A stretch of 42,015 bases of DNA, taken from Nitrospirota bacterium (GTDB lineage Bacteria > Nitrospirota > Nitrospiria > SBBL01 > JAADHI01). Position numbers and translations under genes: made by a program. Where the stretch lies: NCBI GenBank assembly GCA_029261215.1, contig JAJDBT010000098.1:1-42015 (forward strand). Reading direction: 5' to 3'. Positions 27,714 through 38,921 of this stretch are shown in pieces (position 1 is the first letter of the stretch; each line of letters opens with the position of its first letter). The notes below the pieces were generated by a model. It saw only the letters and a list, made by a program, of their open reading frames with translations, was not told the origin of the DNA and made no database searches.

Positions 27714-28131
27714 GGGAAACAAGCATAACATGCCGAAAAATAAGGCGCAATCCATCACATCGAGATGCCTTTTAGGTCATCCTGGGCAATCGCGACAAAG
27801 CGATTGGCATTCAAAACCTGATGATCCCCTGATCGGAGAAATCCATGGCACTTGATTCGGTTTATCTTTTAAAATACCCCGGCTCAAGGTTGGCGCAAGA
27901 TCCTTAACAAGAAGTTCGATTGACATTGACCACCCACCTTTCCTTGTTTTTAGTGAGAACGAACCACCCCATTTCAAAACATTTCGAGCATCACTTTGAA
28001 ATGAAATTATTGATTTTTTCACCGTAATGGGATAAACATTAGGGGATTGATACTTGATAAGGGTACGGGTTTTTCCTACATTTAAATCCTGCGGCCTCAT
28101 TCTTAGAACCCAATCAGGAGGAGAAACCATA
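27714..28131. other. Divergent intergenic region between RND exporter and AMIN lipoprotein
   Basis: This 418-base gap contains no credible gene. It has two clean inverted repeats: CAATCGC-6-GCGATTG (27787-27806) and CATTTCAAA-16-TTTGAAATG (27970-28003). A weak -35/-10 pair for the plus strand, TTGATT (28010-28015) with TAAACA 17 bases later, could drive the lipoprotein gene. A minus-strand frame at 27777-28391 crosses the lipoprotein gene and is judged a shadow. Confidence 0.45.
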
Positions 28132-29223
28132 GTGGACCTAAAAAATATCGTGCTGAGCCGAATACCCCGAATTGTATGTCTTTCCATCATTGTAGGGCTC
28201 AGCCTTTCCTGTACGGTCAAAAACACACGCAGATCCTTGAGTGCGCCTGATCCGATAAAAATACAGGACATCCGGGTTGCCGAAGGCACGGATAAAACCA
28301 TTATCGAGCTAGAGTCAGAAGAACCCATTTTATATACCTCTTTTCGCCTTTCTGACCCCGATCGTCTGGTCATCGAAATGGCGGATGTCACTTTTGGGCA
28401 ATATCAGGATGAAATTAAAATCTCGGAAGGTCCGGTACGCTCAATTATGCTGGCCTCCAGTGGGGAGCTTGATGTTTCACGACTTGAGTTTAAACTCAAT
28501 GGCCTGGTGAAGACGGATGTACGACCAGAAGGCCTGAATATTGTCATTGAAGTCACACGCATCGAACAGGCAAGCGGGCCAGGCAAGGCGAATCAAGTCG
28601 AATCGAACCACAAAAAAAGTTTTATTTTTTTTGGGGACAAAGAAAACCAGGCGCCAAATGAACTTGAGCCCAACCCTGGCATAGAAACAATTCGGGAAGA
28701 ACCGCTGGATGCAGACATCCCGTCTATAGATATGCCTTTAAATCCCCCGGCGCTGGCTCCCGCAATTCCTGAAATGGCGCTTCCCACTGTAGCAGAAATA
28801 CCCCCATCGCCCACAGATGTAAAAAAAGAAGCCCCTGTCACGGATCAAAAAATGGAGAAAATGCCATTACCTCTCGTAGACAAAAAAAAGATTAAAAAAG
28901 AAGTGGTCATGACCTCTCCAGCCCAATTCGTCTCAGGAGTGAAGTTTATAGAGGGAGATTCTCTGCAATTGGTCATCACCTCCGACGGGCGGCTCTCCCC
29001 CAACATTTTTTTTGTTGGTGAAAAAAAGGAACGACTCGTCATCGACTTTCCCGGGGTTCGTACGACCATAAAAGAAGAGACCCACCCCGGGGACGGCTTG
29101 TTCGTACGGAGAGTTCGTTTTGGCCGACACCCCAAAAAGCTTCGGCTCGTGCTTGATCTGAATCTGCCGGTGACCTATTCCTGGGAACAGAGAAAAAACG
29201 AATTGTGGGTAACCCTTAAATAA
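28132..29223 (+). CDS. Lipoprotein with two AMIN-like domains
   Basis: A 363-residue probable lipoprotein. The GTG at 28132 has GGAGGAG eight bases upstream; the longer frame (28054) does not. The N-terminus is a type II signal peptide with lipobox LSLSC. Two AMIN-like beta domains are visible. The first (about 32-135) contains TIIELESEEPILYTSFRLSD, DRLVIEM and GPVRSIML; the second (about 268-363) contains LQLVITSDG, ERLVIDFPG and FVRRVRFGRHPKKLRLVLDL. Between them is a Pro/Glu/Lys-rich linker. AMIN domains occur in AmiC and PilQ and target peptidoglycan or the septum or pilus secretin. No secretin domain or pil gene is present here, so its partner is unknown. Confidence 0.82.
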   Translation: MDLKNIVLSRIPRIVCLSIIVGLSLSCTVKNTRRSLSAPDPIKIQDIRVAEGTDKTIIELESEEPILYTSFRLSDPDRLVIEMADVTFGQYQDEIKISEGPVRSIMLASSGELDVSRLEFKLNGLVKTDVRPEGLNIVIEVTRIEQASGPGKANQVESNHKKSFIFFGDKENQAPNELEPNPGIETIREEPLDADIPSIDMPLNPPALAPAIPEMALPTVAEIPPSPTDVKKEAPVTDQKMEKMPLPLVDKKKIKKEVVMTSPAQFVSGVKFIEGDSLQLVITSDGRLSPNIFFVGEKKERLVIDFPGVRTTIKEETHPGDGLFVRRVRFGRHPKKLRLVLDLNLPVTYSWEQRKNELWVTLK

Positions 29224-29817: not shown

Positions 29818-30804
29818 ATGTTTGATCATAAGATCTTAAGACTCGCTTTGTTAACCATCTTCATCCTGGTGTTTGGCGCGGTCGGACTGAGTTATTTTGA
29901 GGACACCTCCTCCCCGCTTGATGCTTTGTGGTGGAGCTTTGTCACCATTACAACCGTCGGCTATGGAGATGTGACACCCTCTACAATCGGCGGAAGAATC
30001 ACCGGGGTGATTGTCATGGTCTTCGGAATCGGGATGCTGGGGATGTTTACCGCAACCGTCGCCAGCATCTTTGTAGAAGGCAAACTGAATGAGGGAAAGG
30101 GTTTAAAAACAGTGAAGGTGACGGAGCATTTTATTATCTGCGGATGGAGTTATAAGGTAGAAGAAATTATTGAAGAACTGCGGGCAGACCGGAAGATCGA
30201 GCACCGCCCTATCGTTCTGATTGCCAACTTGCCTGAAAAACCCCTCCGGGATGAAAACCTCCACTTTGTCTCAGGTACTGTAACAAACGACAGTCTCGAA
30301 AAAGCAAAACTCTCCGAAGCCGCAGGGGTTTTAATTTTATCAGACGAAGCCCTGGATGCTCAGTCACGAGATGCCAAAACGGTCTTCAATACCCTCACCA
30401 TTAGAGCGCTGCATCCCACAGTTTACATTTGCGCTGAAATCACCGACCCTCAAAATGAACCGCATTGTAAAATGGCGGGGGCGAATGAAATTGTAGTCAT
30501 CGGCGCGCTCAGCAGCAATCTATTGGTACAGGCCGCCCTAGATCACGGCATTACACACATGATTACCGAATTAATCAGCAACCGCTCCGGCAGTAATCTT
30601 TTCAAAGTAACGCCGCCGAAAAATCTGATCGGCCGGCCTTTTATCGAGGCCCTCACCATGATGAAACAGGATCACGATGCCATTCCCATCGCGATTGAAT
30701 CCAGTAATGACCACAAGTTTATTTCAAACCCATCCATGATGTATAAAATTCAGCCGGACGATCTTTTTGTCATTATTTCCAAACAGCGCCCTGAAGTGAC
30801 TTAA
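29818..30804 (+). CDS. Potassium channel with RCK (TrkA-N) domain
   Basis: A 328-residue ion channel. TM1 spans about 8-25, the selectivity filter is TTVGYGD (45-51), TM2 about 62-83, and a cytoplasmic RCK domain begins at EHFIICGWSYKVEEII (about 103), followed by a RCK_C-like segment NLFKVTPPKNLIGRPF and DDLFVIISK. This two-TM/RCK plan is MthK-like. The RCK nucleotide motif is IICGWS rather than the canonical GxGxxG, so the ligand may not be NAD. It is the first gene of an eight-gene operon with pspA, DUF350 and spermidine synthase. Gating by polyamine, Ca2+ or nucleotide is a guess. Confidence 0.92.
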   Translation: MFDHKILRLALLTIFILVFGAVGLSYFEDTSSPLDALWWSFVTITTVGYGDVTPSTIGGRITGVIVMVFGIGMLGMFTATVASIFVEGKLNEGKGLKTVKVTEHFIICGWSYKVEEIIEELRADRKIEHRPIVLIANLPEKPLRDENLHFVSGTVTNDSLEKAKLSEAAGVLILSDEALDAQSRDAKTVFNTLTIRALHPTVYICAEITDPQNEPHCKMAGANEIVVIGALSSNLLVQAALDHGITHMITELISNRSGSNLFKVTPPKNLIGRPFIEALTMMKQDHDAIPIAIESSNDHKFISNPSMMYKIQPDDLFVIISKQRPEVT

Positions 30805-30840
30805 ACAGATAAAATAACGCAATAAAATAGGAGTCAAATC

Positions 30841-31248
30841 ATGTCTGAACATTTTGAAAAAGTAAAAAACTATCTTCTGGAGCTGGGCTTGTCCATTTCC
30901 AGTGAAAATGAGAAAGAAGCCCTGGTCTTTGTGGATGACGAAGACAAGGGCATCAAAAACCTGATCATTGATTGCGAAGACCCGATTCTGGTCATTGAGC
31001 AAAGAATTATGGCCGTACCGGCAACAACAGACCTGTTTTACAAACGTCTGCTTCAGATGAATCGCACCCTCGTACATGGGGCCTTTGCGCTGGATGATGA
31101 GGGAAAATACCTTATCTTTCGGGACACCCTGCAACTCGAAAACCTCGACTTAAATGAGTTGGAAGGCACCATTAACGCCTTGAGTCTCGCTCTGGCGGAA
31201 AATGCCAGCGAGTTGATCGCCTTTAGCAAGGATGGCTCGAAGGGATAA
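30841..31248 (+). CDS. YbjN/CesT-like chaperone-fold protein
   Basis: A 135-residue acidic cytoplasmic protein with the alternating pattern of the YbjN / type III secretion chaperone-like fold: an opening helix HFEKVKNYLLELGL, strands ALVFVDDEDKGIKNLIIDCE and ILVIEQRIMAVP, the helix DLFYKRLLQMNRTLVHGAFA, strand KYLIFRDTLQLENL, and a closing long helix. Proteins of this fold (YbjN or DUF2170/YjfI) sit next to PspA genes in other bacteria. AGGAG lies before the ATG; 36 bases separate it from the channel gene. Likely role: adaptor or regulator of the PspA protein (inference). Confidence 0.7.
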   Translation: MSEHFEKVKNYLLELGLSISSENEKEALVFVDDEDKGIKNLIIDCEDPILVIEQRIMAVPATTDLFYKRLLQMNRTLVHGAFALDDEGKYLIFRDTLQLENLDLNELEGTINALSLALAENASELIAFSKDGSKG

Positions 31249-31306
31249 TAGCAGACTCCAAACGTGGGTTATTGCTTCATAAAAATCAGGAAGAAGGAGA
31301 AATCAG

Positions 31307-32023
31307 ATGGCGGGAATATTTCAGAGATTATTTAAAGTCGGACAGGCCGAAGCTCATAGCGCAATCGATCAGTTTGAAAATCCGATCAAATTAACGGAAC
31401 AAGGTATACGGGATCTCAAAAAAGATTTACAGGAGTCCATGCGCTCCCTCGCAGAGGTAAAGGGAGTGGCCATTCGCCTGAAGCGGGAAGCCGAAGAAGA
31501 TAAAAAACGGGCGGCGGACTACGAACGAAAAGCCATGCTTTTATTGCAAAAGATGCAAAATGGTGAATTGGAGCCTGTTCAGGCCGAACGTCTGGCCTCG
31601 GAGTCTTTGGCCCGCAAAGAAGAGGTCAGCCAAAAAGCAGTGAAACTGATGCAGGACTGGGAACGGCAGGATAAAATGGCCGCGCAGCTTCAGCGCAGTG
31701 TGGAAAAGCTGAAATCAACCGTGTCCGCCTACGAAAACGATTTAATCACCCTTCGGGCCAGAGCAAAAACGGCTTCAGCCACGCGAAAAATCAACGAGCA
31801 AATGGCCAAAGTTGATTCTTCAGGCACGATTTCCATGCTGGAAAAAATGAAGGCAAAAGTCGAGGAAGATGAAGCCCTCGCGGAATCCTATGGCGAGATC
31901 GCTGCCGTCGATAAAAGTGTCGATGATGAAATCAATGCCGCCTTGAACACCGGCTCAACCAGTCCTGCCAGTGCACAACTGGAAGCCTTGAAAGCCAAAA
32001 TGGGCATCAAACAAATTCAATGA
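31307..32023 (+). CDS. pspA: PspA/IM30 family membrane-remodelling protein
   Basis: A 238-residue PspA/Vipp1 (bacterial ESCRT-III) protein. The amphipathic N-terminus MAGIFQRLFKVGQAEAHSAI is the membrane-binding helix; the rest is a long coiled coil (LKKDLQESMRSLAEVKGVAI, KAMLLLQKMQNGELEPVQ) ending with MLEKMKAKVEEDEALAESYG and a short helix. Such proteins polymerise on stressed inner membrane and keep it sealed. AAGGAG lies before the ATG. There is no pspF, pspB or pspC, so regulation differs from E. coli Psp; the genomic setting is like YjfJ, the PspA paralogue of the yjf operon. Confidence 0.93.
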   Translation: MAGIFQRLFKVGQAEAHSAIDQFENPIKLTEQGIRDLKKDLQESMRSLAEVKGVAIRLKREAEEDKKRAADYERKAMLLLQKMQNGELEPVQAERLASESLARKEEVSQKAVKLMQDWERQDKMAAQLQRSVEKLKSTVSAYENDLITLRARAKTASATRKINEQMAKVDSSGTISMLEKMKAKVEEDEALAESYGEIAAVDKSVDDEINAALNTGSTSPASAQLEALKAKMGIKQIQ

Positions 32024-32061
32024 TGTTCAAAAAAATACTTCCTTATTAGAAAGGACTGAGT

Positions 32062-32709
32062 ATGAGTACTGCGATCATCATTCTGCTTGCCGTCTGTGGC
32101 TTTCTTTTTTACAGAATGAACAAGAAAAAACCTGAACAAGTAACATCCGAGCAGGGAGCGCTCATCGGCGCTTCGGGCAAACGCCCCTATGCAAAAGACG
32201 AACTGCGCATCGAAAATGTGGAAGCGGGCGGGATGATTCATATTTCCGGCATCGGGCCAAACCTGGATGAATTTGATGTCAAGATCCTTGCCAAACATCT
32301 CTACCGGGAAGGCACTTCATCATGGTACGAACTCGAGGGAGAGTCCACCGAGGGCAAAGTATGGATTGATCTGGAGGAAGACGACGAGCTGGAACTCAAC
32401 ATTACACTTAAAAAGATCAAACTCCGGGAAGCCGGCTTGTCTAAAAAAGACCTCGAACGCATAGACGATGAAGAAGAAGGCGAAATCACCTTTGAAGGAG
32501 AAACCTACATCTATGAGGACTCCGACCGCGCCATTTTTTATAAATATGGCGATGAATCCAATGGAGAGCCTTTCTATTATTGGGATTTTGAAAACGAAGC
32601 CGGGAATAAATTCATCAGCGTTGAGAAGTGGGAAGATGGCGAGTATGATGTCTCATACAGTGAACCCATTGCATCCCATCAAGTCAGTGTTTTTAATCTC
32701 AAAACATAA
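32062..32709 (+). CDS. DUF4178-domain protein with N-terminal membrane anchor
   Basis: A 215-residue protein. An N-terminal TM (STAIIILLAVCGFLFYRM) is followed by a soluble beta-rich part that looks like DUF4178: LYREGTSSWYELEGE, KVWIDLEEDDELELNIT, and a second part GEITFEGETYIYEDSDRAIF, FYYWDFENEAGNKFISVEKW and YDVSYSEPI. DUF4178 proteins are regularly found with PspA, DUF350 and spermidine synthase; their biochemical role is unknown. AAGGACT lies before the ATG. It is 38 bases after pspA. Confidence 0.78.
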   Translation: MSTAIIILLAVCGFLFYRMNKKKPEQVTSEQGALIGASGKRPYAKDELRIENVEAGGMIHISGIGPNLDEFDVKILAKHLYREGTSSWYELEGESTEGKVWIDLEEDDELELNITLKKIKLREAGLSKKDLERIDDEEEGEITFEGETYIYEDSDRAIFYKYGDESNGEPFYYWDFENEAGNKFISVEKWEDGEYDVSYSEPIASHQVSVFNLKT

Positions 32710-32735
32710 AGGGCCTGCCCCAAAAGGATCACATC

Positions 32736-33581
32736 ATGGAAAACCTTGGCTACGAAATCCTGCATGGCATAAGCCTCATCCTGCTCTTTATGCTGATCCT
32801 GCTGATATCCAAAGCGGCCAATGACTTTTTTACGCCCTACAAGCTGGATGAAGAGCTGCACGAGAAAGACAATGTCGCCCTTGCCACAAGCATCGCGGGT
32901 TACCTTTCCGCCACAACCGTTATTTTTATTGGGGCACTTTTAGGCCCGACCAAAGGCATTTTGGCAGATCTCATGAACGTGGGCGGCTACGCCCTGCTGG
33001 GGATTGTCCTTTTAAATCTCTCCCATGAAATCAACGACCGCTTTATCCTGCATCGCTTTTGTAATGTGAAAGAAATCATTGAAGACCGTAACATCGGCGC
33101 AGGCGCGGTGCAATTCGGCTCCTACATGGCTTCAGGCCTCGTCGTCGCCGGATCGATTCACGGCGAAGGCGGCGGCATCGGATCAATTCTCGTCTTTTAT
33201 ATTCTCGGTCAGGCCGCCCTGATTCTCTTCACGGCCTTTTATAACTGGATCACGCCTTTCGACATTCATGATGAAATCGAACAGGACAACGCCGCCGTCG
33301 GGGTGGCCTTTGGCGGTACCTTAACCGCCGTTGGGATTATATTAATGAAAGGCGCCTCCGGGGATTTTGTCAGTTGGGGGCATAACCTTTCCATTTTTGT
33401 TATGGACGCTGCGCTCATCTTCATTCTTTTGCCCGTCGTACGATTCTTTTTTGACAAAGTGATTATGCCGCGCACCTCGCTTGATCATGAGATTCAACAC
33501 GACCGTAATCTGGGCGCGGGTTTTTTGGAAGTGATCGGCGCGATCTCTTTTTCAATTATTTTGCTGTTTGTCATGGGATAA
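32736..33581 (+). CDS. DUF350 (YjfL-like) multi-pass membrane protein
   Basis: A 281-residue inner-membrane protein made of two similar four-TM halves. Each half has a polar, conserved cytoplasmic loop: KLDEELHEKDNVALATSIAG in the first and FDIHDEIEQDNAAVGVAFGG in the second; each ends with a helix followed by another His/Asn-rich loop (EIIEDRNIGAGAVQFGSYMA and LDHEIQHDRNLGAGFLEVIG). This internal repeat, with EI/DN/GAG motifs, is the DUF350 hallmark. YjfL in E. coli is about 130 residues, so this is a duplicated long form. Function unknown; the repeated acidic/Asn loops suggest a transport or cation or polyamine-binding role (inference). Confidence 0.88.
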   Translation: MENLGYEILHGISLILLFMLILLISKAANDFFTPYKLDEELHEKDNVALATSIAGYLSATTVIFIGALLGPTKGILADLMNVGGYALLGIVLLNLSHEINDRFILHRFCNVKEIIEDRNIGAGAVQFGSYMASGLVVAGSIHGEGGGIGSILVFYILGQAALILFTAFYNWITPFDIHDEIEQDNAAVGVAFGGTLTAVGIILMKGASGDFVSWGHNLSIFVMDAALIFILLPVVRFFFDKVIMPRTSLDHEIQHDRNLGAGFLEVIGAISFSIILLFVMG

Positions 33582-33614
33582 GCACATCAGATTGACCTTC
33601 CCTTTGGAGCTTCA

Positions 33615-34199
33615 ATGAACAAGATCGACCAAAAAGATAAAGTCCAGACCGCAATGGCTCTCATCGGTTTTGCCATGCTTAGTTTTGTGACCGCCCTAGC
33701 CTTCAATTTGACCACAGGCACACTCATCTCGGAAGTCCTGCCTGCCGCAGGCGGCGTCGTCGGGCCAATCCAGGTTGAAAAAGATCGCACGGTTTACCAG
33801 ATTAAAGTCGAGCAAAGCGTTGGTCGTGACGGGGCCTGGAACCAGGTGACCGGAGAAATCCTGGATGAAAAGAAAGAACCCCTCTTTAGTTTTGGAGAAG
33901 AATTCTGGGCCGAATCAGGCTATGACGATGGTGGTCGATGGTCGGAACAGAAAACGGACTACGATATCAAGATCACGCTGCAAAAGGGCACCTATTTTCT
34001 GGGCCTGGAATCCGAAAATCAGGATGCCAGCCTCAGTCAGGTTCGGGTGAGCGTCAAGAAAAAAGGGGGCAGCGCCGTCCCCTTTTTCACAGCGGGCATT
34101 ATCGCCCTCATAATAGGCGTGGTCATGAACGAAATGGCAAAAGGCACCATCAGTCGAGGCTTAAAAAGTATGGACACAGGGGCAAATCGATGGGAATAA
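33615..34199 (+). CDS. Two-TM protein with extracytoplasmic beta domain (PspA-cluster associated)
   Basis: A 194-residue membrane protein. TM1 (QTAMALIGFAMLSFVTALAF) and TM2 (AVPFFTAGIIALIIGVVM) flank an approximately 110-residue domain that should lie outside the cytoplasm: GPIQVEKDRTVYQIKVEQSV, EEFWAESGYDDGGRWSE, and YDIKITLQKGTYFLGLESEN. The pattern of strands resembles a jelly-roll or PPC-like sandwich. No family is recognised with certainty. It overlaps the start of the next gene by 10 bases. Position in the operon suggests it is a partner of the DUF350 channel-like protein. Confidence 0.75.
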   Translation: MNKIDQKDKVQTAMALIGFAMLSFVTALAFNLTTGTLISEVLPAAGGVVGPIQVEKDRTVYQIKVEQSVGRDGAWNQVTGEILDEKKEPLFSFGEEFWAESGYDDGGRWSEQKTDYDIKITLQKGTYFLGLESENQDASLSQVRVSVKKKGGSAVPFFTAGIIALIIGVVMNEMAKGTISRGLKSMDTGANRWE

Positions 34200-34456
34200 A
34201 AAAGAAACCTGTTTTGAATAATCAAAAAGGCGGCATTATTTTGGGCGTCGGACTCTTTCTCGTGGTGATCTATATTTTCCTGCTTTCACTCAGCTTTCGT
34301 GGGTGGGGCTATCCCATGTTTTATGGCGGTTATGCCTACGGGCCCTCATTTTGGTATTGGGGCGGCCCGCGTTATTACGGCGGCGGCCCAAGCGTGCGCA
34401 CCGGCAGCACTGGCGGCCCCAGTCGCATGGGAGGCGGCCCAGGGGCCGGAAAATAA
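34190..34456 (+). CDS. Small Gly/Tyr-rich single-TM peptide
   Basis: An 88-residue peptide. A basic N-terminus (MGIKKKPVLNNQKG) precedes one TM (GIILGVGLFLVVIYIFLLSL), and then a low-complexity tail of Gly, Tyr, Trp, Pro and Ser (for example YPMFYGGYAYGPSFWYWGGP). The chosen ATG at 34190 overlaps the upstream gene's end by 10 bases, giving translational coupling; the longer frame to 33938 is a shadow. Its stop abuts the start of the spermidine synthase gene. Similar short aromatic-glycine tails are seen in other PspA/DUF350 clusters (recollection, not checked). Confidence 0.72.
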   Translation: MGIKKKPVLNNQKGGIILGVGLFLVVIYIFLLSLSFRGWGYPMFYGGYAYGPSFWYWGGPRYYGGGPSVRTGSTGGPSRMGGGPGAGK

Positions 34457-36004
34457 GTGCCAGACATAAACACCGCCGCACCCGAAACCGGGTCGCGGAA
34501 AGAAGTTTCCATCCTCATTATTTCGATTTTCATCGCGGGCCTCTGTTCGATTATTTACGAACTGCTTATCAGTACCGCCTCCTCCTATTTTCTGGGCGAC
34601 AGCGTCAAACAATTTTCCATCACCATCGGGCTGTACATGGCCGCGATGGGCATCGGTTCCTATTTTTCACGCCTGATCAAGACAAACCTGCTCTCCAAAT
34701 TTATCGCCGTCGAAATCCTGCTCGGGTTTTTAGGCGGCATGAGCGTCCCCATCCTCTATTTTTGTTACGCCTATACCGACATGTACTCGCTCTACATGGT
34801 CATCGTCATACTGGCCATTGGTGTTTTAATCGGCCTTGAAATTCCGCTGCTCACGCGCATCATGCAGCGTTATTACACCCTGAAGATCAATATCTCCACC
34901 GTACTTTCCATCGATTACCTGGGTGCGCTCATCGCCACCCTGCTTTTTCCATTTATATTGCTGCCCTTTCTGGGCACTTTTAAAAGCTCGCTCTTTTTTG
35001 GCTTGATCAACATGGGCATCGGCTTTTTAAACCTTTGGTGTTTCCGGGAAACGCTGCAACTTCAGCGGCGCCGGGTTTATATGATGGCCTCGCTCGTGGT
35101 TTCCCTCGCGCTTTTGACCGTCTTTCTCTCCGCGCCCTTTTTCCTCAAGCAATGGAGCAACAGCCTCTATGAAGACCGCATTATTTTTTCACAGCAAACC
35201 CGCTATCAAAAAATCATCCTCACCAAAAACAAGGACGACATTCGTTTGTTTTTAGATGGCAATCTTCAATTCTCTTCCATCGACGAATACCGCTACCACG
35301 AAGCCCTCGTGCACATCCCCTTCGGGCTCGCAAAAAAACGATCCCGTGTCCTGCTTTTAGGCGGGGGCGACGGACTGGCGATTCGGGAAATGCTAAAATA
35401 CCCGGATGTCGAACACATCACCGTCGTGGATATCGACCCCGCAATGACCCAAATTTCAAAAGAAAACCGGCACATCCGCCACATGAACAAAGACAGCCTG
35501 CAAAATCCGCGCGTCAAGATTGTGAATGCCGATGCCTTTATCTTCTTAAAAGAAGGACAGGAAGACTATGACCTCATCATCGCCGACCTGCCCGATCCCA
35601 ACAACACCAGCCTTTCACGGCTCTACAGCCAAACCTTTTATCAACTCGTGCGCGCACGCCTTTCACCGCACGGAATCTTTCTGACACAGGCAACCAGTCC
35701 GTATTATGCAAAACAGGCCTTTTGGTGTATCAACACCACTATTCAATCTGCCGGACTCAAAACGGCACCTTATCATCTCTACATTCCCTCTTTCGGAGAT
35801 TGGGGCTTTGTCCTCGCCGCACGGGATGCCCTAGACCCAACGGCGGTTAAAATAGAAGTCCCCACACAATATTTAGAAGAAAACATCCTGCAAAGCCTCT
35901 TCGCCTTTTCCAAAGACATGATGGAAGAAGAAACCGAACCCAGCACCCTGGATCAACCCGTCATCCTGAGCTATTACCTCAAAGGCTGGCGGCATTGGAA
36001 TTAG
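34457..36004 (+). CDS. speE: Membrane-anchored spermidine synthase (polyamine aminopropyltransferase)
   Basis: A 515-residue fusion of an N-terminal integral membrane domain (about 7-8 TMs, residues 15-235) and a C-terminal spermidine-synthase-fold methyltransferase-like domain. The catalytic half shows YQKIILTKN, LFLDGNLQFSSIDEYRYHEA, the decarboxylated-SAM site LLLGGGDGLAIREM (about 298-312), VVDIDPAMTQIS and the proton-acceptor region DLIIADLPDP. It would transfer an aminopropyl group from decarboxylated S-adenosylmethionine to putrescine or a related amine at the membrane surface. A GTG directly follows the preceding stop. No SAM decarboxylase is in the cluster. It is the last gene of the operon. 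Confidence 0.9.
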   Translation: MPDINTAAPETGSRKEVSILIISIFIAGLCSIIYELLISTASSYFLGDSVKQFSITIGLYMAAMGIGSYFSRLIKTNLLSKFIAVEILLGFLGGMSVPILYFCYAYTDMYSLYMVIVILAIGVLIGLEIPLLTRIMQRYYTLKINISTVLSIDYLGALIATLLFPFILLPFLGTFKSSLFFGLINMGIGFLNLWCFRETLQLQRRRVYMMASLVVSLALLTVFLSAPFFLKQWSNSLYEDRIIFSQQTRYQKIILTKNKDDIRLFLDGNLQFSSIDEYRYHEALVHIPFGLAKKRSRVLLLGGGDGLAIREMLKYPDVEHITVVDIDPAMTQISKENRHIRHMNKDSLQNPRVKIVNADAFIFLKEGQEDYDLIIADLPDPNNTSLSRLYSQTFYQLVRARLSPHGIFLTQATSPYYAKQAFWCINTTIQSAGLKTAPYHLYIPSFGDWGFVLAARDALDPTAVKIEVPTQYLEENILQSLFAFSKDMMEEETEPSTLDQPVILSYYLKGWRHWN

Positions 36005-36028: not shown

Positions 36029-36745
36029 TTGGGAAACGAGTCAAAGAAAAAAATGTCGCAATATCGTCCGATACTATACGGTTCTCTTCTTGCTATCGGA
36101 GTTTCTTCTCTTGTAGCGGCATGGTATCTACCTATAAATGAAATATCAAAATCGATTGTAGCTTTGCCCTTTGTTGGTGCTTTATTTTCCGCTTTATTCC
36201 AATTAATAAGGGACAAGTCTTCATTTATTAATGACACAGTAAAACAACGTCGAGAGCATGCTTTTGTAGTCGCGGCTACTTCTCATATGTCAAAAGTGGT
36301 TTTTGATAAGCATGTCGCGTTTGGCGAAGCTTACATAGAGGAATTGCTGAACGTATTGGGGAAAATTATTGCTGAAGGTCCAACCGAAAAGGCAATTGGC
36401 TATACACAACCATTATACGACGTTAGAAGAAAATATCGACTTTGGATTTCTTCGGATACGGCAACGGCTCTCGATGAATTTGAAGGAAAGATGCTGAAAA
36501 TGGGTACTTCCCATTTGGTATGGGCCGCAACACGAGGCGAAGACGGTTCTCATAAAAAGCTCGACGAGGCTAATGAATTGTTTTTAGAGATAACACACTT
36601 GGATAAAAAAAACCGTAGTTCCCCTGAAGTTAAAACAAAGGAACACCAAGGATATAACTTGGTGATTAATCATTTTCAAGAAATTCTTGGAATTGAAAAG
36701 TTAACGAAACTAAGAGACACGGTTTTAGATCAAAAGAGTAATTGA
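36029..36745 (+). CDS. Two-TM protein of unknown function
   Basis: I do not recognise this 238-residue protein. Two TM segments near the N-terminus (ILYGSLLAIGVSSLVAAWYL and KSIVALPFVGALFSALFQLI) are followed by a cytosolic, mostly helical part of about 165 residues rich in charged residues (RREHAFVVAATSHMSKVVFD, EELLNVLGKIIAEGPTEK, LWISSDTATALDEFEGK). The plan recalls SLATT-type sensors, but no family motif is certain. The start is TTG at 36029 or ATG at 36053, neither with a strong ribosome site. The gene is visibly richer in A/T than its neighbours, which suggests transfer. It may be an independent or defence-related insertion after the PspA operon. Confidence 0.65.
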   Translation: MGNESKKKMSQYRPILYGSLLAIGVSSLVAAWYLPINEISKSIVALPFVGALFSALFQLIRDKSSFINDTVKQRREHAFVVAATSHMSKVVFDKHVAFGEAYIEELLNVLGKIIAEGPTEKAIGYTQPLYDVRRKYRLWISSDTATALDEFEGKMLKMGTSHLVWAATRGEDGSHKKLDEANELFLEITHLDKKNRSSPEVKTKEHQGYNLVINHFQEILGIEKLTKLRDTVLDQKSN

Positions 36746-36779: not shown

Positions 36780-38921
36780 ATGAAGTCCCGCCACGCAACA
36801 ACCTGCTTTTTCCTTATCTCATTAATTGTTCTTTCTACTCCGCCGAAAACAAGCCACGCCCAGGAACTCCCTAAACGCACACTCACGGCGATTCCTGTCG
36901 GTGATGAAGTCATCGAAATCGATGGGCTGCTTAATGAACGTCTTTGGCAGACCGGGGCGGCGGCAACGCAATTCATACAACAGGAGCCGCATGTCGGCAC
37001 CGACGCAAAGGCAGTCTCTGTTGTTCGCATGGCTTACGATGCACAATATCTTTACATCGGAGCGCTGTTAAATGATCCCGAACCGGACGCGGTTCAGGCG
37101 GACGAGCGGCAGGAGGACGGGCTGTTTGATCGAAGCGATTCCTTTGCCGTGCTCATCGACAGCTATCACGATCACCAAAACGCCTTTTTCTTTGAAACAA
37201 ATCCGCTTTCAGCGGTCTCCGACGCCCTCGTGAGCCAGGAAGGCACCCAAGTGAATCGGGACTGGGACGGTTCCTGGCGCGTTTCGGCGCGCCGAACCCC
37301 GACGGGCTGGTCGGCGGAGTTTCGTATTCCCTTTGAAACGCTGCGTTTTCGGCCGGGCGATGCGCAAACCTGGGGCGTACAATTTCGCCGCCGCGTGCCG
37401 CATTTGAAAGAAATTTCCTTTTGGAACCCTCTCACCTCGGAGCAGGATTTTTTTGAAATCTCGCGTTCCGGACATCTGGAAGGCATTGAACCCACCCAGC
37501 GCATTCGGCCTTTAATCATTAAACCTTACGTCAAAGAATCCTATCAAAAAGACACGACAACGGGAAACGACCGCTCCGACACCGAATTTGACGGGGGCAT
37601 GGATTTTCGATATCGCTTCCGCACAAACCTGACCCTAGATCTCACCTACAACACGGATTTTGCGGAAACAGAGGTGGACCGCTTTCAGGCCAACCTCACG
37701 CGCTTCCCCCTTTTTTTTCCGGAAAAACGCGAGTTCTTTTTGGAAGGCAAGGGGTATTATGATTTTGGCCTCTCCGGCCGGGTACAGCCTTTTTTCAGCC
37801 GACGCATCGGACTCATCAACCGGGAAGCCATTCCGATTCTCGGCGGGGGAAAAATGAGCGGGAAGGTCGGCCCTTACGGCATCGGCACCCTCTTTATGAA
37901 AACAGAATCGGAGCATGGGAATCCCGGCGAGCGTTTTGGCGTCTTCCGGCTTTCAAGAGATCTGGGGCTTCGTTCCAATATTGGGATGATTGCGACAGGA
38001 CGCAAAGACCCGGACAATCCTCACAAGGAGACACTCGGTTTTGACGGCGTTTTTGCACCCAATCAATACTTAAGCACAAATGCGTTCTGGTTGTCTTCAG
38101 ACAGCAGCGATCCCACAGAGCAGGGAGAGGCTTCTTTTGGCGAGATCACCTGGCGCGATCCCTTTTGGCGGATTCAGTTAAATCATTTGCGTATCGATGA
38201 AGATTTCGACCCCGCGCTGGGTTTTGTTCAGCAAACGGATCTGCGCGAGACGTATGGATATGTGGATATCCGGCCGCAGCCCGAAGGCGGGATCGTGCGA
38301 GAATATGGGTTTAAAACAGAAATAACCTATCAAACGGATGATCGCGGCGGTTTTCTTTATCAAAGCAACTACAACCGCTTTCAGGCCGATTTTCGTTCTG
38401 GAGATTTTTTATTAATCAGTGTGGACCCGCAACGCGAGCGGCCCGAAGAATTTGATATTCGGCCGGGGATCACAATTCCTCAGAGAACGTATGAATACAC
38501 ACACACCAATATTTATTTCAGCAGCGATACGCGGCGGCCACTTTCCAGCATTGTCAGTCTTTTGTGGGGCGGTTATTACGGCGGCCGGAGAACCTCGCTC
38601 GACATTATCCTGACGACGGCCCCAAGAGAAGGCGTAAAAGTCGGGGCAGGCTGGGAGATCGATTGGATCCGTCTGCCGCAAGGGGATTTCTCGGCTCAGA
38701 TCCTCAGTGCAGACATCGCCTGGTCCCTCAGCAACAGGCTGCTGCTTCAGGGGTTGTTTCAATGGGACAAGGAAGAAAACTCGACGGCCGCCAATCTCCG
38801 TCTTTCATGGGAATATTACGAGCGCAGCTGGTTTTATTTCATCATCAACCCCGCCCATCAGCGCGACGGGAATACCTTAAGTATCCTCACAAAAATAACC
38901 TTTCAGTGGGAACCGCTGTAA
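36780..38921 (+). CDS. DUF5916 outer-membrane protein with CBM9-like domain
   Basis: A 713-residue exported protein. A signal peptide (to about SHAQ, residue 28) is followed by a CBM9-like domain of about 190 residues: VIEIDGLLNERLWQTGAAAT, VRMAYDAQYLYIGALLNDPE, SDSFAVLIDSYHDHQNAFFF and GWSAEFRIPFETLRF. The remainder is a DUF5916 barrel-like region with LDLTYNTDFAETEVDR, FFPEKREFFLEG and many aromatic-ended strands. The last strand ends FQWEPL. DUF5916 proteins are common in Bacteroidota and some Gemmatimonadota and Nitrospirota and of unknown role; the N-terminal domain suggests glycan binding. No sugar-degrading genes are near. The ATG at 36780 has no clear ribosome site and overlaps the stop of a 10-codon frame starting at 36751. 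Confidence 0.85.
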   Translation: MKSRHATTCFFLISLIVLSTPPKTSHAQELPKRTLTAIPVGDEVIEIDGLLNERLWQTGAAATQFIQQEPHVGTDAKAVSVVRMAYDAQYLYIGALLNDPEPDAVQADERQEDGLFDRSDSFAVLIDSYHDHQNAFFFETNPLSAVSDALVSQEGTQVNRDWDGSWRVSARRTPTGWSAEFRIPFETLRFRPGDAQTWGVQFRRRVPHLKEISFWNPLTSEQDFFEISRSGHLEGIEPTQRIRPLIIKPYVKESYQKDTTTGNDRSDTEFDGGMDFRYRFRTNLTLDLTYNTDFAETEVDRFQANLTRFPLFFPEKREFFLEGKGYYDFGLSGRVQPFFSRRIGLINREAIPILGGGKMSGKVGPYGIGTLFMKTESEHGNPGERFGVFRLSRDLGLRSNIGMIATGRKDPDNPHKETLGFDGVFAPNQYLSTNAFWLSSDSSDPTEQGEASFGEITWRDPFWRIQLNHLRIDEDFDPALGFVQQTDLRETYGYVDIRPQPEGGIVREYGFKTEITYQTDDRGGFLYQSNYNRFQADFRSGDFLLISVDPQRERPEEFDIRPGITIPQRTYEYTHTNIYFSSDTRRPLSSIVSLLWGGYYGGRRTSLDIILTTAPREGVKVGAGWEIDWIRLPQGDFSAQILSADIAWSLSNRLLLQGLFQWDKEENSTAANLRLSWEYYERSWFYFIINPAHQRDGNTLSILTKITFQWEPL

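Follow-up and report, generated by a model that had tools for sequence, protein, structure and literature searches.

Within the window, a stretch of 42,015 nucleotides from a Nitrospirota bacterium (assembly GCA_029261215.1, contig JAJDBT010000098.1), eight consecutive open reading frames (ORFs) on the plus strand at 29818-36004 form an operon whose last two genes encode a small peptide with a single transmembrane (TM) helix (gene 7, g7) and a membrane-fused aminopropyltransferase of the SpeE type. We found that g7 ends in a conserved tail with exactly Gly-Lys-COOH at its C-terminus, that tails of this type are carried by unrelated proteins elsewhere, and that they co-occur with the membrane SpeE. 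We propose, at roughly even confidence, that the operon is a PspA/CesT/DUF350 membrane-stress module around a modification pair, in which the membrane SpeE aminopropylates the C-terminal lysine of the tail. An earlier note on this DNA had listed eight plus-strand genes of named families spaced by 0-58 bases and read them as a coherent membrane operon, parallel to Escherichia coli yjfIJKLMC with SpeE replacing the ATP-grasp enzyme. The ORFs lie as described, with the expected Pfam and NCBIfam matches, and the parallel holds; its interpretation as a whole is partly supported, as set out below.

The g7 homologues were chosen by a profile hidden Markov model (HMM) and not by their C-terminal residues, and all of them (36/36) end in Gly-Lys-COOH. 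They span Nitrospirota, Gastranaerophilales, Alpha- and Gammaproteobacteria, SAR324 and Verrucomicrobia. Numbered from the C-terminus, the signature of the tail is S(-21)-x-R(-19)-x-x-S(-16)-x9-G(-6)-x3-G(-2)-K(-1). This strict 21-residue form was present in 32/36 g7 proteins and in 17/20 long DUF4178 proteins, and elsewhere in only five other ORFs among 6,953, each of them a tail carrier beside SpeE. For DUF4178 proteins the Gly-Lys end depended on length, being found in 19 of the 20 with at least 300 residues and in none of the 36 shorter ones. As background, 4/677 gene-like ORFs of the sampled stretches end in Gly-Lys when two tail carriers are set aside, and 15% of the ordinary proteins there end in lysine. 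The earlier note had described g7 as a Gly/Tyr-rich single-TM peptide, which is correct for the TM helix but passes over the Gly-Lys end, its conserved and substrate-like feature. A search of the open-access literature gave no previous description of the tail; the main text of Ravi et al. 2024 (PMC11237479), which describes operons of this type, contains neither the word 'lysine' nor 'glycine' and mentions no C-terminal tail.

Our main sample consisted of 80 SpeE loci with 1.30 Mb of surrounding DNA. At loci without g7, a tail-type ending was found on unrelated proteins adjoining SpeE: at the C-terminus of the long DUF4178 proteins in Clostridia, on a DUF4247 protein (L094; the sample is without actinobacterial DUF4247 genes), on lipoproteins, on TM peptides of about 60 residues in Bacteroidota and Chloroflexi, and in SAR324 (L056) fused to gene 6. 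A tail lay near SpeE in 60 of the 61 loci with DUF350 nearby (59 matched the pattern and L056 was added manually) and in four further loci where DUF350 was not detected. The remaining 15 loci, comprising a Bacteroidota clade, a Poribacteria clade and one cut contig, had neither tail nor DUF350, and two Bacteroidota genomes that we checked had no DUF350 at all. One tail per membrane SpeE locus everywhere is thereby ruled out.

The pattern derived from these 80 loci was then tried on plasmid, Gammaproteobacteria and Alphaproteobacteria loci fetched later. Tails were present at 13/17 gammaproteobacterial and 5/5 alphaproteobacterial loci (Proteobacteria 18/22) and at 6/8 plasmid loci. The tail was not found in L126, L184, L185, L186 and L190, of which L184 and L186 are cut by contig ends and L190 stands alone; at L131 speE is truncated. 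New carriers appeared among the held-out loci, including a 510-residue lipoprotein of an Alteromonas plasmid ending in ..RNRGPSSGK, lipoproteins of 310-370 residues ending in ..SRGGK or ..RSGK, and TM peptides of 45-55 residues with His-Lys ends (..GPSHK, ..IPTHK). The final residue of the held-out tails was always lysine, preceded by Gly or His and once by Val. Three loci (L179, L180 and L182) have what is apparently a minimal unit, a short lipoprotein with an Arg/Ser-rich Gly-Lys tail together with the membrane SpeE, and no DUF350 was detected on these stretches.

The SpeE of the operon matches Spermine_synth (8e-41) and scores 651 bits against NF002956, above the curated cut-off of 472 bits; at 151.8 bits it falls short of the equivalog cut-off of TIGR00417, the canonical speE (249.55 bits). 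Its catalytic motifs are intact, with D377 and D380 invariant, and it shares its fold with the aminopropyltransferases from Thermus and plants (best Foldseek match 1uir). E35, E86, E128, R134 and D153 are invariant in the membrane domain. Lysine and arginine are concentrated on the N-terminal side of the membrane domain (9.9 vs 2.4 per protein), a bias seen in 56/56 sequences. Given seven TM helices and the positive-inside rule, the catalytic domain is therefore placed outside. The tail carriers are lipoproteins or N-anchored peptides, so their tails should be outside too; on this topology, the tail and the catalytic domain would meet on the outer side of the cytoplasmic membrane.

Aminopropyltransferases usually have putrescine as acceptor, and the lysine side chain offers the same aminobutyl amine. 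In the proposed reaction, decarboxylated S-adenosylmethionine (SAM), the product of the genome's SpeD, would be the donor, and its aminopropyl group would be transferred to the side-chain amine of the tail's last lysine. The product would be a Gly-linked, spermidine-like polycation tethered to the membrane. If this is true, the lysine would gain 57.06 Da, which can be tested by mass spectrometry, and the modification would be one not described before. The conserved, portable tail beside almost every DUF350-linked SpeE would then name a concrete substrate and residue for the membrane-fused 'spermidine synthases', answer what these enzymes do, and define what PspA-linked stress operons produce chemically. 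The reaction, where it takes place relative to the membrane, and whatever it might do to PspA, DUF350 or the channel are our inferences.

A different possibility, in line with the published view and with the earlier note, is that SpeE makes or senses free polyamine at the membrane, which tunes the membrane dynamics of PspA, DUF350 and the channel, while the Gly-Lys tail serves as a flexible cationic anchor only. The intact active site fits this as well, and polyamine genes are repeatedly linked with PspA (PMC11237479); the same authors suggested polyamines 'or aminopropylation of other substrates' as what PspA systems monitor. On the other hand, a 2025 paper (PMC12803844) states that bacterial membrane-fused homologues were shown to take no part in making spermidine or spermine. 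The window's genome also has speD and a second, canonical speE side by side on a separate contig (G000:C57:16154-17291; L001, L035), and free polyamine leaves unexplained why unrelated carriers have an invariant lysine at the very C-terminus. We therefore regard this explanation as unlikely, and the polyamine that the earlier note had acting on PspA, DUF350 and the channel finds no specific support. Together with the intact motifs and fold and the aminobutyl amine of lysine, the published statement on the homologues and the separate speD-speE pair make the C-terminal lysine of the tail the probable acceptor.

A parallel comes from the operons with an ATP-grasp enzyme, where a DUF1190 lipoprotein is encoded beside it. 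In E. coli the C-termini are ..RGHWGG (YjfM) and ..SRSMGG (YgiB), and of the ten DUF1190 proteins that we read nine end in Gly-Gly, the remaining one in Cys-Gly. RefSeq labels YjfC and YgiC as peptide-spermidine ligases, a naming that follows work cited in PMC10948618. The end of the tail thus changes together with the enzyme type, Gly-Lys with SpeE and Gly-Gly with ATP-grasp. By analogy, spermidine joined to a C-terminal glycine and an aminopropylated lysine after a glycine would be nearly one end group, and the product of the SpeE reaction would be close to that expected from a yjf-type ligase joining spermidine to a C-terminal glycine. SpeE/GK and ATP-grasp/GG operons would, if the reading is true, use different chemistry to give a membrane protein almost identical polyamine ends. 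In a broader form, to which we give somewhat less than even credence, the family of membrane-fused aminopropyltransferases from Clostridia to Nitrospirota would modify portable S-x-R-x-x-S-x9-G-x3-[G/H]-K-COOH tails, so that, outside the cell membrane, the final lysine becomes a spermidine-like group; the joining of spermidine to Gly-Gly by ATP-grasp enzymes would be the counterpart.

The same switch of the tail end bears on two further explanations. The tail could be a docking or processing signal for another member of the operon (DUF350, gene 6, PspA or a protease) and not a substrate of SpeE, since it tracks DUF350 as well and DUF350 is common to both enzyme variants. Both the pairs of tail lipoprotein and SpeE in which no DUF350 was detected (L179, L180, L182) and the change of the tail with the enzyme type speak against this, and we consider it improbable. 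Anchoring as in Braun's lipoprotein (Lpp) is a further alternative, in which an L,D-transpeptidase joins the C-terminal lysine to peptidoglycan while SpeE lengthens the amine or acts elsewhere. Carriers that are lipoproteins or membrane-anchored and have their C-terminal lysine outside the cytoplasm do resemble Lpp, the window's genome has three YkuD-type domains, and such a step could follow aminopropylation. However, the tail tracks SpeE and DUF350, the operon has no YkuD gene, and the Gly-Gly that replaces lysine in the ATP-grasp variant is not joinable in this way unless modified beforehand; the chance that anchoring accounts for the tail seems slim.

Several points weigh against aminopropylation of the tail. 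The chemistry itself is inferred from sequence. With the catalytic domain outside, decarboxylated SAM would have to cross the membrane, for which we know of no precedent; speculatively, the invariant acidic and arginine residues E35, E86, E128, R134 and D153 of the membrane domain would suit a cation path. The 14 related SpeE of the Bacteroidota and Poribacteria clades are without a tail gene nearby, and L100 has DUF350 and no tail that we could find. Tails rich in Gly, Ser and Arg are of low complexity, and the looser [G/H]K ends on carriers other than g7 and DUF4178 proteins were in part picked by eye, so that we weight them below the counts obtained by profile. In an AlphaFold2 model of g7 read through into SpeE the tail was disordered and outside the active site, although such a fusion has no free C-terminus; we dropped this docked model as support.

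The operon is of a known kind: a CesT/Tir-PspA operon of six to seven genes, among them DUF350, DUF4178, a lipoprotein and a 7TM-fused spermidine-synthase domain, was already reported by Ravi et al. 2024 (PMC11237479). A separate group in the same paper has an ATP-grasp ligase, DUF350, DUF1190 and a K+ channel, and the channel beside SpeE in the window is a hybrid of these two published groups. The closest named relatives are Ca. Manganitrophaceae / Nitrospirota. Five relatives from the genus and family keep all eight genes in this order, with the set interrupted by a contig end in one of the five; a more distant member of the class (G093) has the seven genes other than the channel gene together. 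This synteny and the recurrence in other phyla rule out a chance gene order. From one gene to the next, gene 1 to 8, the spacing is 36, 58, 38, 26 and 33 bases, followed by a 10-base overlap and an exact abutment.

The combination of channel and SpeE was met in about nine other lineages. A 2TM/RCK channel adjoins the SpeE operon in Marinobacter (L057), Opitutia (L070), Clostridia (L089) and three Gammaproteobacteria (L181, L189, L192), and on the opposite strand in a Rickettsiales bacterium (L061) and a metagenome-assembled genome (MAG) of Bacteroidetes (L075); at L058 the adjoining channel is of the 6TM type. Around the 80 SpeE genes, 1.30 Mb contained 11 K+ channels, 10 of them adjoining operon genes, compared with two in the whole 3.37 Mb genome of the window. 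The pairing is thus no oddity of this genome, and the channel recurs as an accessory at a minority of the loci. The earlier note had called channel plus aminopropyltransferase unusual and had named, as what would refute its reading, a channel or SpeE next to PspA in this genome only; this is not the case, since channel and SpeE recur together in other phyla, and the pairing joins two published groups.

Compared with the published systems, the operon shares with group 2 of Ravi et al. (PMC11237479; Shewanella AAN56744-AAN56747) the CesT/Tir-PspA dyad, DUF4178, an 8TM DUF350 and a SpeE with a 7TM N-terminal domain. The window operon has both a K+ channel and a C-terminal tail, neither of which the paper mentions for this group. 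The counterpart of the paper's 'novel lipoprotein', which has a Ctha_1186 domain, may here be a one-TM peptide: gene 7 has a single TM helix and no lipobox, and gene 6 has two TM helices. With E. coli yjfIJKLMC and its channel-bearing relatives (group 3; Rhizobium L195, L198) it has in common a CesT-like protein, PspA, DUF350, a K+ channel with an intracellular sensing domain, a Gly-tailed membrane protein and a polyamine enzyme. It differs in having SpeE, DUF4178 and a Gly-Lys end where group 3 has an ATP-grasp peptide-spermidine ligase, DUF2491 and a Gly-Gly-ended DUF1190 lipoprotein; PF03738 (ATP-grasp ligase) was not found in the window's genome, nor did Pfam match DUF1190 or DUF2491 in the operon. 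In the ATP-grasp operons of the Rhizobium plasmids (L195:573-5777, L198:554-5744), an ion channel gene lies upstream of those for YjfK, DUF350, DUF1190 and the ligase and is divergently oriented to YjfI-PspA; this channel and that of the window share only about 26% identity.

The window SpeE shares the fold, GGGDG and the D-x-x-D catalytic motif with polyamine aminopropyltransferases (Thermus 1uir/3anx; thermospermine synthase 6bq2) and differs in the 7TM fusion, in its score on TIGR00417 (152 vs 250 bits) and probably in its acceptor. Deoxyhypusine synthase likewise puts a polyamine-derived chain onto a protein lysine, in eIF5A, but is an unrelated enzyme that transfers aminobutyl from spermidine to an internal lysine, whereas the window enzyme would transfer aminopropyl from decarboxylated SAM to a C-terminal one.

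Table 1. Genes and domains of the operon, in window positions.
Feature	Position	Strand	Evidence
2TM K+ channel, TTVGYGD filter, cytoplasmic RCK/TrkA_N domain; accessory operon gene	29818..30804	+	Pfam, synteny in 5 relatives, other lineages
CesT/Tir-like protein (CesT_Tir_1, YbjN-like)	30841..31248	+	PF22550 E=8.7e-53
PspA/IM30 family protein	31307..32023	+	PF04012 (PspA_IM30) E=7e-42
DUF4178 protein, short form without tail	32062..32709	+	PF13785 E=3e-16
Double DUF350 membrane protein, YjfL-like	32736..33581	+	PF03994 in two copies, E=5e-49
Gene 6, beta-rich domain flanked by two TM helices	33615..34199	+	No accepted family; HMM matches in 38/80 loci
Gene 7 (g7), 88-aa single-TM peptide, tail carrier, proposed substrate	34190..34456	+	36/36 homologues GK-COOH-ended
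Codons of the 21-residue C-terminal tail, SVRTGSTGGPSRMGGGPGAGK; final codon, proposed modified lysine	34391..34453	+	Signature S.R..S.{9}G...GK$
Membrane-fused aminopropyltransferase (SpeE-like, NF002956/PRK03612 family), GTG start, abuts g7	34457..36004	+	NF002956 651 vs cut-off 472 bits
SpeE membrane domain, 7 TM helices, residues 14-224	34496..35128	+	AlphaFold2 predicted local distance difference test (pLDDT) 88.6, conservation
Aminopropyltransferase domain, GGGDG, D377-x-P-D380-P	35168..36001	+	Conservation, PDB alignments, Foldseek

The channel gene matches Ion_trans_2 (1e-18) and TrkA_N/RCK (3e-11), and the YbjN match of the CesT/Tir gene is weaker than that to PF22550. A genome search found no DUF350 in the rest of the window's genome, and no accepted Pfam or NCBIfam family was found for gene 6 or gene 7. 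Promoter and terminator scans were at background level or uninformative. The flanks at 28054-29223 (upstream) and 36780-38921 (downstream) are syntenic in several Manganitrophaceae relatives, thus the operon sits in a stable chromosomal place. An ORF of 238 residues without a family (36029-36745) lies 25 bases past SpeE. It was rejected as an operon member, with a homologue in 0/80 related loci, and because the gene at 36780-38921 is syntenic in relatives it looks like a lineage-specific insertion.

Gene content varies among the other loci. The apparently minimal pairs of L179 and L182 have a GNAT-like gene on one side and type IV pilin-like genes on the other. A plasmid variant without PspA is found on the Alteromonas mediterranea plasmid pAMCP48-600 (L130, 196769-212361), with SpeE, SpeD, a small protein, a toxic-anion-resistance (TelA-like) protein, DUF4178, the 510-aa GK-tailed lipoprotein and DUF350. 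On a Novosphingobium plasmid (L132, 3583-10432) an SPFH/band-7 protein, two DUF4178 proteins, a 48-aa HK-ended TM peptide, DUF350, SpeE, a flavin adenine dinucleotide (FAD)-dependent oxidoreductase and SpeD are encoded. Two distinct GK-tailed proteins of 201 and 84 aa share one operon at L207 (8653-9258 and 10050-10304). At L071 (8619-11111), in a Bacteroidetes MAG that has no tail gene, the membrane SpeE is immediately followed by another, short ORF resembling SpeE.

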